Source: a virus. From it: 23,527 nt of DNA. Of the stretch, positions 11,793 to 15,542 are shown in pieces. The stretch covers positions 1 through 23,527 of the IMG/VR virus record IMGVR_UViG_3300017987_000367. One strand, given 5' to 3'. A program made the position numbers and the translations under genes. The notes under the pieces were generated by a model. It was not told the DNA's origin. It worked only from the letters and a program-made list of their open reading frames with translations, and made no database searches. How positions within the stretch are numbered: position 1 is the stretch's first letter; the number at the start of each line of letters is the position of its first letter.

Positions 11793-12179
11793 ATGGCAAA
11801 TTACCTACGCGACGGCATCGAGTGGTTGCATGAGCAGCGGCACTCGCAACTATCCGAAGCGCTCGAGTATTTGCGTCGGGCCGAAGCAACCGCGATCGAG
11901 CTCAACGGCACGTTGGGCACCACCGACCGCGATTTATTGATTGATCAAGAGTTATTTATCAATTCAAGCGTGCGCGATTTTATCGTGCGGCGGGCCGACC
12001 TATCGGACGCGGGCGAATTGATCGAGCCCGAAAGCGGCGACCGTATTACGATCGTCGCGACCGGGGCCGTGTATGAAGTCTGCGAGCTCGGCCAGGAACC
12101 GGCCTGGCGGCCGTCGGACGAATACGACGCGGCGATCCGAATACACAGTCGACTAATAGTTGCGGGCGTCGTGGCGTGA
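11793..12179 (+). CDS. Head-tail connector-like protein
   Basis: The 128-residue product follows the capsid gene, the place of neck proteins that close the portal channel. Residues 1-35 are a long helix (LHEQRHSQLSEALEYLRRAEAT). The rest is strand-rich, with RDFIVRRADL, SGDRITIVATGAVYEVCELG, AWRPSDEYDAAIRIH and a hydrophobic end. The motif of EPESGDRI, a short strand, YEV and W/Y-rich turns is typical of head-closure or FII-like connectors. ATG 11793 lies eight bases after a stop closing a short unsupported frame. The stop overlaps the next GTG (GTGA), so the two are translationally coupled. Confidence 0.65.
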   Translation: MANYLRDGIEWLHEQRHSQLSEALEYLRRAEATAIELNGTLGTTDRDLLIDQELFINSSVRDFIVRRADLSDAGELIEPESGDRITIVATGAVYEVCELGQEPAWRPSDEYDAAIRIHSRLIVAGVVA

Positions 12180-12640
12180 GCGGCAGCAACCAAACACTCG
12201 GCAGCCTACTCGCAACCGCGTTGGGCAGCATGACAACACTACCGACCGTTGGCGGCGGATGGGATACGGCACCCGTCGCGGCCTGGTCGCCAGAATTTGA
12301 CCGCGAGGAAATACAGAACGGCGGGTTGCAGTGCTACGTGTTCCCGATGGGGCACGAGCCACAGCAAGTCGACCGAGCCGGCCGACTCAATCCCGACACA
12401 TTGCTCGAGGTACACGTTGCGGTGTTGTTGCCACGATCACGCGACGGGGACTATGCCGAAGGCGGCCAGGCCGTGCGGGCCGCCGAGTTGGTGATCGAGG
12501 CAACGCTCGGCCAGCAAATCGCGGTTGCGGGGTTTCGGTGCGTCGAATGCGAACACGACCCGGTGATCAGCAAAGAGTATTTGCGAGAGAACCGACTTTG
12601 GTGCAGTTATTTGAAGACATTTTGGCGAAAGGTTAGTTGA
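12176..12640 (+). CDS. Tail terminator/tail-completion-like protein
   Basis: GTG 12176 overlaps the connector stop. The 154-residue protein has a helix (NQTLGSLLATALGSM), then strands with WSPEFDREEIQNGGLQCYV, LLEVHVAVLLPR, AELVIEATLGQQI and a final strand with CVECEHDPVISKEYLRENRLWCSYLKTFWRK. This alternating pattern of a conserved helix and strands ending in an aromatic-rich strand is shared by minor tail/terminator proteins that cap the tail tube. I assign the role from pattern and position. The usual order would continue with neck and tube genes, but four unusual genes intervene. Confidence 0.6.
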   Translation: MSGSNQTLGSLLATALGSMTTLPTVGGGWDTAPVAAWSPEFDREEIQNGGLQCYVFPMGHEPQQVDRAGRLNPDTLLEVHVAVLLPRSRDGDYAEGGQAVRAAELVIEATLGQQIAVAGFRCVECEHDPVISKEYLRENRLWCSYLKTFWRKVS

Positions 12641-12641
12641 T

Positions 12642-12983
12642 ATGGTTTGTGCCCCAAAATTTCCCGACAAGATCCCGTTCGAGTGCCTGGTCGACATTTT
12701 CGAAGCCGTACGCGGCGGCGAGGCAAATGCGATCGAGATCGGCACTCAAGCGACTTGGGTACTCGGCAGCGTGCTCGCCAAATTCGACGGGCGGGTCGAC
12801 CCCGAGGACCCGGCGATCACGCTCAACACGTACGAGGGCAGTCTCGCCGAGCAGGTCGAGCGACTCAAGCCGTATTTTCAGCCCAGCATGAAAGCCGCCG
12901 ACGCCGAAGCCATCCCGCCCAGCGTGTGGTGGATGCTGGTGAAATTTTTACTCGAGCTAATCAGCGAGCGACTCGGCAAATAA
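12642..12983 (+). CDS. Unidentified acidic helical protein, subtilase neighbour
   Basis: This 113-residue protein starts at ATG 12642 one base after the previous stop, and its TAA overlaps the subtilase ATG. It is acidic overall, with helices (PFECLVDIFEAVRGGEANAIEIG, split here at DIFEAV), a proline-containing turn VDPEDPA and a C-terminal amphipathic helix with WWMLVKFLLELISERLGK. The C-terminal hydrophobic helix could touch a membrane or a partner. No family is recognised. The tight coupling to the protease gene suggests a partner, chaperone or inhibitor, but nothing in the sequence proves this. Confidence 0.6.
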   Translation: MVCAPKFPDKIPFECLVDIFEAVRGGEANAIEIGTQATWVLGSVLAKFDGRVDPEDPAITLNTYEGSLAEQVERLKPYFQPSMKAADAEAIPPSVWWMLVKFLLELISERLGK

Positions 12984-13924
12984 TGCACAGCAACGACCCA
13001 CAATTCGAGCCCATGATCTACACACCGCCGGACCTTGAGGTCGGTGCGTTTGTCGACCAGACTGCGCCGACGTTGTGGCATTTGCCAGCCGGCAAGTGGC
13101 GAGACGTTTGGCAACGGGTCACGGGCCGCACGGTCAAGATTGCAATTCTCGACACGGGCTACACCAAACACGCAGACGGCCCGGTGCCGATCGCCGAGCG
13201 TTCATTTATTCGCGGCGAGTCGGTCAGCGATCGCAACGGGCACGGCACGCACTGCGCGGGCACGGCACTCGGCCGCAATGGCATCGGGGTCGCACCCGGT
13301 GCCGAGTTGATCGTCGGCAAAGTATTAAGCGACCGAGGCAGCGGGAGCTCGAGCGGTATCGCGGCCGGTATCCGATGGGCAACCGAAGCCGGGGCCGATG
13401 TTATATCAATGAGTCTCGGCGGCGGGTCGAGCTACGGGCCGACTAATGCCGCGATCGACGACGCATTCGAGCAGGGCGTGATTGTCAACGCGGCGGCGGG
13501 CAATTCCGGCTATCGCGGCCGCAACACGATCGGCTGGCCCGCCAGGTATTCGGGCTGCATTTGCTGCGGCGCGTATCGTCGCGACGGGCAGATTGCCAAT
13601 TTTAGCAGCGGCGGGCGGCAATTGGATTGGGCGTGCCCAGGGCAAGACATTGTTAGTTTTGCAATCAACGGCAGCGGCTACCGCAGTATGTCGGGAACCT
13701 CGATGGCCACACCATTCGGGGCGGGCGTGTTTGCGTTGATCGTCGAGCTAATGCGACGCGAGGGCCAAGCAGAGTGGAGGGCGGCCGACGCGGTGCGGGC
13801 GTTTTTCAAACGCAACATGACCGACGCGGGCCAACCAGGATTTGACGAGCGTTTCGGGCACGGCATACCGACAATGCCCGAAATAATGACGGCCCTCGTC
13901 AACGACAATTTGCAATTTGCATAA
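12983..13924 (+). CDS. Subtilisin-family serine protease (S8)
   Basis: The 313-residue product is a complete subtilase core. Catalytic Asp57 sits in AILDTGY, His87 in NGHGTHCAG, the oxyanion Asn174 in AAAGNSG, and Ser240 in GTSMATP. ATG 12983 overlaps the upstream stop; a longer in-frame extension from 12647 lies inside the previous gene and is not used. There is no signal peptide, no recognisable inhibitory prodomain of the usual length (only about 50 residues precede the catalytic Asp), and no C-terminal domain, so it would act in the cytoplasm, in the virion, or after lysis. Structural operons of tailed phages do not usually contain a subtilase. It may process virion proteins, alter the host envelope, or protect the lysogen. 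Confidence 0.93.
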   Translation: MHSNDPQFEPMIYTPPDLEVGAFVDQTAPTLWHLPAGKWRDVWQRVTGRTVKIAILDTGYTKHADGPVPIAERSFIRGESVSDRNGHGTHCAGTALGRNGIGVAPGAELIVGKVLSDRGSGSSSGIAAGIRWATEAGADVISMSLGGGSSYGPTNAAIDDAFEQGVIVNAAAGNSGYRGRNTIGWPARYSGCICCGAYRRDGQIANFSSGGRQLDWACPGQDIVSFAINGSGYRSMSGTSMATPFGAGVFALIVELMRREGQAEWRAADAVRAFFKRNMTDAGQPGFDERFGHGIPTMPEIMTALVNDNLQFA

Positions 13925-13933
13925 AGGGCCAAC

Positions 13934-14677
13934 ATGTTGAAACTCGCAAGACTAGTTGCACTTGTTGCACTGTTGCCCGTTGCCAGCCTGGCCGAAGTCG
14001 CGGCCGTGATCGAGGGGCCGACAACGGCCAAGAGTGGCGACCTGGTCGTGCTATCGGCCGAGGATTCGATCGGCGATGGGTTTCGCTGGATTACGCCCGA
14101 CGGCGTTTCGGCGATCAGTTGCACGCCAAAACAGCTAGCGTTTGCAGTTGGCCGGCCTGGCAAATACGAATTCACATTGATCGTCGCCGACACGTCGGCC
14201 GCGATCGACTTCGACCGGGTGACGGTCACGGTCAGCGATTACAACCGGCCCGACCCGACACCCGACCCGGTGCCCGATCAGCCAGGCGAGCCCGACCAGC
14301 CCGACGAACCGACACCGACACCGCCGAGCGATGAAGTCGAAACGGTGCGGCGGGTCAGCAACCAAACAGCGGCCGAGCTCGGCGACCCACCGACGGCCCG
14401 ATCTCTGGCCGCCAGCATTCAAGCCGAAGCCGATCGCATCGACCAGCTATGCCAGGCGAGGCGGTGCCCGACGTTGCAGTCGGCCAAAGCGACAATGGTT
14501 GCGGTTATACGCGGGGTGTTGTTGCGTCGCAGTGGGTCGAGCCAACAAGTCGACTGGACACGCTGGCGCATTGCGGTCAATGACGCACTCGGCCAGGCCG
14601 AGACCGACACGCTAGCCAATTATTTGACCTTGATGCGTGCGGCGGCCGTCGGGCTGCGCCAAGCGTTGCCACCATAG
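13934..14677 (+). CDS. Secreted PKD/Ig-like domain protein
   Basis: The 247-residue protein starts at ATG 13934, nine bases after the subtilase, with AAAGGG upstream. Residues 1-20 form a signal peptide (MLKLARLVALVALLPVASLA, likely cleavage before EVAAV). Residues about 22-101 look like a PKD or immunoglobulin-like beta-sandwich: a Gly-rich turn, GDGFRWITPDG, PGKYEFTLIVAD and a closing strand RVTVTVSD. A linker of Asp/Pro/Glu/Thr repeats follows (about 103-133), then a helical C-terminal domain containing CQARRC. It should be exported to the periplasm or cell surface. A phage-encoded secreted protein beside a protease suggests action on, or display at, the host envelope. No exact family is recognised. 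Confidence 0.75.
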   Translation: MLKLARLVALVALLPVASLAEVAAVIEGPTTAKSGDLVVLSAEDSIGDGFRWITPDGVSAISCTPKQLAFAVGRPGKYEFTLIVADTSAAIDFDRVTVTVSDYNRPDPTPDPVPDQPGEPDQPDEPTPTPPSDEVETVRRVSNQTAAELGDPPTARSLAASIQAEADRIDQLCQARRCPTLQSAKATMVAVIRGVLLRRSGSSQQVDWTRWRIAVNDALGQAETDTLANYLTLMRAAAVGLRQALPP

Positions 14678-14693
14678 AAAGGAATTCGAAAGC

Positions 14694-15083
14694 GTGCATA
14701 CAAGTAATTTTGCATTCTTGGCGGCGGCGACGTTTGCGGGAGTCTCCGAAACGGCGGCGCTGATTGCCGAGGTCAGCGTGAACCCGCAAAACGTGTTCCA
14801 AATAGCGCAGTACGGCGGCACGGGTGGTTTGATCATTGCCCTGATTTTCGCGTTGCGTGCACTTTGGCAGGACCGGGCCAAGGAGCATGAAAACTACAAA
14901 AGCGATCGAGCGGAATTGCAAAAGCTACTCGCGGCAGAGCGGACCAGCCACCGGCAAGAGATTGCAGAATTGAGACAGCAACACCTTGTCGACCTCGAGC
15001 AACAAACCAACCGTTTTATTGAAGAACTACAACGACAGATCGCAGCGAGCGAAGCCAAGCAAAACGAGAAATTTGGCGAGTAA
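14694..15083 (+). CDS. Membrane protein with C-terminal coiled coil (holin-like?)
   Basis: GTG 14694 follows AAAGGA (14678-14683). An in-frame ATG at 14637 lies inside the previous gene and would spoil the N-terminus. The 129-residue product has a hydrophobic N-terminal segment (FAFLAAATFAGVSETAALIA), a second clear membrane helix at about residues 41-57 (GGTGGLIIALIFALRAL), and then a long charged coiled coil (about residues 60-125, Glu/Lys/Arg/Gln rich). Two hydrophobic helices followed by a charged tail fit a holin, while one anchor plus a coiled coil fits an inner-membrane spanin or an envelope tether. Its place in the insert after the secreted protein supports an envelope role. Confidence 0.65.
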   Translation: MHTSNFAFLAAATFAGVSETAALIAEVSVNPQNVFQIAQYGGTGGLIIALIFALRALWQDRAKEHENYKSDRAELQKLLAAERTSHRQEIAELRQQHLVDLEQQTNRFIEELQRQIAASEAKQNEKFGE

Positions 15084-15086
15084 ACA

Positions 15087-15542
15087 TTGCTAAAACCAAC
15101 CTATACAACACGTATCGCAGTCGACACGCGACCCGTCGAGCGAGCCTATGCTCGCGGTGAGCGTCGTGCGTTGGCTCGAGGCGCGGGGTTGATACGCACG
15201 ACAGCACGCCGACGAATGCGACGACGCAAACGAGCGGCCAGGCCAGGCGAGGGGCCAACCGTACGCCAGGGACAATTAAAGCGGTTTCTACTGTTCGCAG
15301 TCGAGCCGGGCGAATTGTTCGGCCGCCGCGGCACGGCCGTGATCGGGCCGAAGAAATTGCCAGGTGCCAGCGGCGACACGCCCGAGGCACTCGAGAAGGG
15401 CAAACGCACGATGCGAACCGTCGGACGAGGTGCGAGCCGTCGGCGGCAGTCGGTGCGGTACGAGGCCAGGCCGAGCACGGTGCCCGCACTGGCACAAAAA
15501 CAAAACGACCTGCCGAATTTTTGGCGGGATGCCATACGCTAA
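15087..15542 (+). CDS. HK97 gp10-like neck/tail-completion protein
   Basis: TTG 15087 begins a 151-residue, strongly basic protein. The pattern RALARGAGLIRTTARRRMRRRKRAA, then PGEGPTVRQGQLKRFLLF and AVIGPKKL, followed by PEALEKG, matches phage HK97 gp10-like components. In these a helix with RTxAR precedes a Ser/Gly-rich loop and a strand ending in IGP. Members join head and tail or complete the tail. It sits just before the tail-tube gene, as expected. The TTG start lies three bases after the previous stop. The C-terminal half is rich in Arg and ends NFWRDAIR. Confidence 0.75.
   Translation: MLKPTYTTRIAVDTRPVERAYARGERRALARGAGLIRTTARRRMRRRKRAARPGEGPTVRQGQLKRFLLFAVEPGELFGRRGTAVIGPKKLPGASGDTPEALEKGKRTMRTVGRGASRRRQSVRYEARPSTVPALAQKQNDLPNFWRDAIR

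Follow-up and report, generated by a model that had tools for sequence, protein, structure and literature searches.

The lysis cassettes of double-stranded DNA phages comprise an endolysin, a holin and spanins, and their endolysins are known in holin-dependent and Sec-exported forms. Subtilases of the subtilisin Carlsberg family (MEROPS S8A) include intracellular subtilisins, and clostridial collagenases ColG and ColH work with PKD domains. Phage-borne S8 enzymes are known from large Bacillus and Staphylococcus phages (SP-15, vB_BsuM-Goe3, and others). At the locus described here, an S8 subtilase and an exported PKD protein are encoded together among the tail genes of a phage. Within an incomplete library, no description of such a phage protease module was found in the literature.

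Layout of the insert and its four proteins

The window, i.e., the whole stretch of DNA analyzed, is an IMG/VR fragment of 23,527 bases. Using profile searches and comparison with relatives, it was found that the plus strand encodes a terminase, a lambda-type portal, a protease/capsid fusion, and a head-tail joiner; tail-terminator, neck, tail tube, tape measure, and tail-tip genes lie on the same strand. An integrase-like ORF recognized by eye at the left end on the minus strand (positions 285 to 1445) suggests a temperate phage, and a similar ORF was seen at the corresponding end of a related contig, G012. A sequence-only reading had placed four ORFs at positions 12642 to 15083, between a tail-terminator gene and a neck gene, and both place and strand were confirmed. 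The left boundary is formed by a tail-terminator-type gene (12176 to 12640, plus strand) with a homologue at the equivalent position in G012. The right boundary is a neck-type gene (15087 to 15542, plus strand) with 35 homologues in related phages and a PHROG neck/tail-completion match at an E value of 0.045; both flanking genes thus belong to the corresponding families of related phages. The cassette is compact and co-directional, and the codon-position GC of its genes resembles that of the capsid and tape measure genes. Overlapping starts, claimed earlier for the insert as a whole, exist between the first two genes only (TAATG), whereas the other junctions are gaps of 1 to 16 nt. No promoter signal above chance was detected in the cassette.

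The first ORF, termed A (12642 to 12983, plus strand), lies directly upstream of the subtilase gene and encodes an acidic protein of 113 aa that ends in an amphipathic helix. Its AlphaFold model is helical, and a search with this fold returned no PDB match. Homologues of 104 to 106 aa lie directly upstream of the protease gene in 11 contigs. A leave-one-out HMM identified A as the only credible ORF of the window, with an end-to-end alignment at an E value of 0.004, and the homology is weak. A could be a partner, chaperone, or inhibitor of the protease.

The second gene (12983 to 13924, plus strand) encodes a 313-aa subtilase, here termed S8, which matches Pfam Peptidase_S8 at 3e-46. The proposal that it is a complete protease with the triad Asp57, His87, and Ser240 was borne out, as these residues and the oxyanion Asn174 are invariant among aligned homologues at 54 to 69% identity. 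Such homologues are present in 12 contigs, and a leave-one-out profile from which the window sequence had been excluded recovered S8 at 6e-144. S8 matches PDB entries of the subtilisin Carlsberg type at 1e-44, with intracellular serine proteases among the matches. Direct reading of the N-termini revealed no signal peptide or recognizable propeptide in S8 or its homologues, in which a short stretch without a hydrophobic leader precedes the catalytic domain; in this, S8 shows neither the signal peptide nor a recognizable inhibitory propeptide such as secreted subtilisins have. The exception to the short N-terminus is G012, whose S8 carries a helical-looking extension of 62 residues and in which no separate A gene was found. 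A scan of species genomes for S8 yielded distant genes only (Nitrospira, Aliikangiella, and HR40). In PADLOC, only the generic subtilase core matched S8 (8.7e-22), and the partner genes of subtilase defense systems gave no credible match to A, the PKD protein, or the membrane protein.

The product of the third gene (13934 to 14677, plus strand) has a signal peptide, a PKD domain (about residues 24 to 101), a Pro-rich linker, and a helical C-terminal domain (residues 133 to 243). Its AlphaFold model is confident (mean pLDDT of 82), and the best PDB matches found by Foldseek are the PKD domains of ColG and ColH (E value of 4e-5), which point to a PKD beta-sandwich; the Pfam match, to K319L-like_PKD, is below the cut-off. 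This agrees with the earlier description of a signal-peptide protein with a PKD-like domain, which is predicted to be exported. A leave-one-out profile recovered the protein at 9e-52, and a homologue lies downstream of S8 in 12 of 12 contigs.

The fourth gene (14694 to 15083, plus strand; GTG start) encodes a 129-aa membrane protein with a C-terminal coiled coil, as read from its sequence. By eye, positive charges follow the TM segment; under the positive-inside rule the coiled coil is therefore predicted to be cytoplasmic, and the protein is probably N-out/C-in. The periplasmic coiled coil of an i-spanin is thus not predicted here. No holin family matched at E values up to 1, and the size and topology are compatible with a holin; nor was a recognized holin or spanin family found in the cassette as a whole. 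TM/coiled-coil proteins occupy the equivalent place in the cassette loci, while G012 has a different TM protein. A leave-one-out profile detected no homology to the window protein, and a scan with the membrane protein as bait returned nothing. Membership in a conserved family was accordingly rejected, the strong HMM matches being to the model's own members. Hence, the membrane protein appears to be common to the loci by position and topology only: the coiled-coil membrane protein noted previously is present, but it is not conserved in sequence and its coiled coil is probably not outside the cytoplasm.

Recurrence of the cassette in other phages

To the 10 contigs obtained from a scan of IMG/VR with S8, the PKD bait added one (L093). 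The order A-S8-PKD was found in 11 further IMG/VR contigs, which represent no fewer than two unrelated phage backgrounds, and L009 to L011 look like copies of one phage, having identical coordinates and scores. In all 11, S8 is preceded by A and followed by the PKD gene, and a TM/coiled-coil protein is encoded beyond these. The carriers include a 70-kb podovirus-like phage encoding a giant protein of 4,026 aa (G006), one with a lambda-type portal and a Clp protease (G007; attributed from a scan pooled with G006), and phages of 67 to 107 kb (G008 to G010). The giant proteins of G006 and G010 (4,026 and 3,831 aa) are encoded at L115:49-12129 and L121:8140-19635, and the former is 29% identical to a protein of Bacteroides phage BS-TP4 over 55% of the 3,000 aa searched. 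A tail-region protein at L014:18925-20556 contains a long Ser/Gly-rich stretch as well as a segment (CFLFGTLVRLEDGRRVPIERLKPGDRIASL) that is Hint/intein-like.

A further pattern scan identified G012, which is genuinely related to the window phage (57% identity in TerL, 47% in the capsid, 69% in S8, and 44 to 47% in the PKD protein) and holds S8, the PKD protein, and its own TM protein in the same slot between the tail-terminator and neck genes. Some cassettes have a 226-aa gene between S8 and the PKD gene, and some a small secreted Cys-containing protein after the PKD protein. The 226-aa gene is found at L117:8308-8985 and also in L003 and L008, and had no NCBIfam or PADLOC match. PKD pattern scans and scans with A and S8 as baits located A or PKD homologues only in cassettes with S8, and no cassette with an endolysin in place of S8 was found. 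Annotated phages gave no match to the PKD protein or A, and plasmids none to the PKD protein.

As homology is strong for S8 and the PKD protein, weak for A, and absent for the membrane protein, the conserved core of the cassette is A-S8-PKD. The suggestion that these genes belong together would have failed had they never co-occurred elsewhere; instead, A-S8-PKD recurs in 11 contigs, and S8 with the PKD gene in G012, supporting the conclusion that A, S8, and the PKD gene form a real, recurrent unit.

PKD-trypsin fusions in relatives and the probable hosts

In phages related to that of the window, the interval from capsid to tape measure is a cargo site that holds many unrelated genes. Methyltransferase-like and glycosyltransferase-like genes, for example, are alternative cargo near the decoration gene at L029:5271-8348 (also in L030, L031, and L082). 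In two S8-less relatives, L083 and L071, an exported protein combines a PKD-like domain with a proline-rich linker; in L083 it also includes, by fusion, a complete trypsin-like protease, whereas L071 is cut by the contig end. The fusion matches Trypsin_2 above the Pfam cut-off, and its PKD part is homologous to that of the window protein (hhalign E value of 1.8e-6). A scan for this PKD-trypsin (PKD-S1) arrangement gave 44 loci (L071, L083, and L192 to L235). All three catalytic motifs are present in 30 of the 35 that were readable, and where gene calls could be read, the order was mostly neck, tail tube, PKD-S1, gpG-like, tape measure. In L229 to L232 the PKD-S1 gene follows tail-type genes, and in L229 it is near small membrane proteins. 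No S8 of the cassette type was present in the seven PKD-S1 records examined, and no description of an exported PKD-trypsin family was found in the literature searched. A few of the PKD-S1 records bear isolate-type IMG numbers, with names that start with 2600255093, 2671180531, and 2910142821.

Two protease clans are therefore found in related phages, in similar places, with the same PKD domain, a pattern which argues that the PKD domain and the protease act together outside the cytoplasm; being an independent line, it is the best evidence for such joint action.

Several further genes were observed in this group. A helical-looking protein of 60 to 64 aa (MLEL..LLGL...DDLVLRVLRALVP) recurs in PKD-S1 phages (L199:5176-5361, L208:1792-1977, L211:2881-3066, and L232:6810-6989); its gene directly overlaps the PKD-S1 start in L232, and the protein may be a counterpart of A. 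Near the equivalent place, L078:5202-6659 encodes an exported trypsin-like domain with a thioredoxin domain, a Pro-rich stretch, and a TM segment; its neighbors are a TM/coiled-coil gene and a gene of 207 aa, NlpC/P60-like by eye. At L076:12756-14840, an exported protein that by eye resembles a cysteine protease is followed by an exported thioredoxin-like TM protein; neither had a Pfam match.

The large serine/threonine kinase of L201, a PKD-S1 phage, had its best-ranked plasmid match in Planctomyces sp. SH-PL62, with Paludisphaera fourth and many other plasmid matches being to Streptomyces. An apparently complete PKD-S1 prophage (G034) seems to extend from a recombinase and repressor to tail genes and lies between non-phage flanks whose proteins carry an N-terminal LEDR..P-type motif that we take to be one known from planctomycetes. 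Through the capsid, tail, and PKD homology that the window phage has in common with its PKD-S1 relatives, the hosts of the cassette phages are probably of planctomycete type. Planctomycete envelopes were reported earlier to be SDS-resistant, cysteine- and proline-rich, and disulfide-stabilized (PMC3035269), and planctomycetes also possess peptidoglycan, which lysozyme disrupts (PMC4432640). No account of how phages leave planctomycetes was found in the literature searched, and the protease module is a concrete candidate for this step. It also bears on the old question of how much of the strength of the planctomycete envelope derives from protein (PMC3035269) or from peptidoglycan (PMC4432640).

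Candidate functions and comparison with known systems

That no endolysin was seen in the window had been taken to keep a lysis role open. As the record is a fragment, this alone means little, and S8-less relatives likewise showed no endolysin (one family search and inspection of the gene calls). The absence is therefore no trait of S8 carriers, and for this reason it was rejected as proof of protein-based lysis. Amidase_2, SLT, phage lysozyme, M15_3, and M23 were absent from the cassette records (the Amidase_2 search covered the records other than G012), and none of the Pfam families listed revealed a murein hydrolase among about 200 proteins, of up to 700 aa, of G006, G007, and G010. G034 has Trypsin_2 and no recognized murein hydrolase among the families listed. 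The absence characterizes the phage group as a whole or reflects the limits of the libraries, and endolysins of unknown families are possible. The peptidoglycan hydrolase of a canonical endolysin-holin-spanin cassette was not recognized here, and the cassette is inside the head-tail genes, away from the usual lysis position. As planctomycete peptidoglycan is disrupted by lysozyme, a murein hydrolase is still to be expected. Protein-based lysis by the cassette is possible.

An envelope-active protease module is, by comparison of these sequences, a well-founded description: the envelope-active cassette proposed earlier is supported by the recurrence of the unit, the exported PKD protein, and the PKD-trypsin fusion in relatives, but loses the membrane protein as a conserved member. 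Our preferred reading, to which we would give a little under an even chance, is that the insert represents a late protease module, conserved and exchanged horizontally between phages, that acts on the host envelope, probably for virus exit. S8 would be its enzyme, held in the cytoplasm for want of a signal peptide until the inner membrane gives way. The PKD protein, exported ahead of S8, might position or prepare a proteinaceous envelope substrate, as the PKD domains of collagenases suggest by analogy. A, coupled to S8 in translation, would act as a partner keeping the enzyme folded or inactive, its place in G012 perhaps being taken by the fused N-terminal extension, and the small membrane protein might supply a membrane step, for example as a holin-like protein. 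The module would then cleave proteins of the envelope as infection ends and assist the release of virus. More broadly, and doubtfully, this phage group may open its hosts by proteases (a subtilase with an exported PKD protein, or an exported PKD-trypsin, once with thioredoxin), a murein endolysin being either replaced or used only afterwards, and the host envelope being largely disulfide-stabilized, proline- and cysteine-rich protein.

The exported PKD binding domain and the exported trypsin forms of relatives would also suit superinfection exclusion or receptor destruction, in which surface proteins are stripped late so that progeny avoid re-adsorbing to debris or to the infected cell; the cassette is placed compactly among the tail genes, and the receptor used by the tail may be what is attacked. 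Without a signal peptide, however, S8 could get to the surface only once the cell has lysed, no promoter signal was seen that would allow separate expression in a lysogen, and the PADLOC match is to a generic core only, so we regard this role as unlikely. We find it harder still to credit that S8 travels with the virion, inside it or on its outside, and degrades a surface layer of the host during entry. Its gene is inside the head-tail operon, it has no signal peptide, and large Bacillus phages also carry subtilases, but the PKD partner and the S1 alternative carry signal peptides, which the proteins of virions put together in the cytoplasm do not usually have, and the cassette occurs with unrelated head and tail genes.

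The latter observation, of the same cassette alongside unrelated tail genes, also weighs against a maturation protease that processes tail or neck proteins, as do the head protease already fused to the capsid in the window phage and the export of both the conserved partner and the S1 protease of relatives; a cytoplasmic S8 encoded between the tail-terminator and neck genes would fit such a role, which is nonetheless improbable. Given that the capsid-tape measure interval is a cargo site that also takes in methyltransferase-like and glycosyltransferase-like genes, the insert might be an ordinary late moron without a role in the infection cycle, such as a nutrient-scavenging or host-fitness protease. 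The co-inheritance of A, S8, and the PKD gene and the independent PKD-S1 fusion argue instead for a specific joint function, and we consider mere cargo very improbable.

The protease module has partial counterparts among known systems. The subtilases of the large Bacillus and Staphylococcus phages are about 28 to 39% identical to S8, but no PKD or A homologues accompany them in annotated phages. S8 has the full catalytic domain and triad of the S8A family and, as in intracellular subtilisins, no signal peptide; it differs in the lack of an identifiable propeptide and in having a separate upstream A gene and a PKD partner. ColG and ColH likewise pair a protease with PKD domains, but they are metalloproteases, whereas here the PKD domain belongs to an exported protein of its own or is joined to an S1 protease. 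Unlike the lysis cassettes of double-stranded DNA phages, the module has a protease as its enzyme, contains no recognized holin or spanin family, and is located between tail genes. It resembles them in being a small group of late genes that combines a hydrolase without a signal peptide, small membrane proteins, and an envelope protein that is exported, and in that relatives have a version of the enzyme with a signal peptide.
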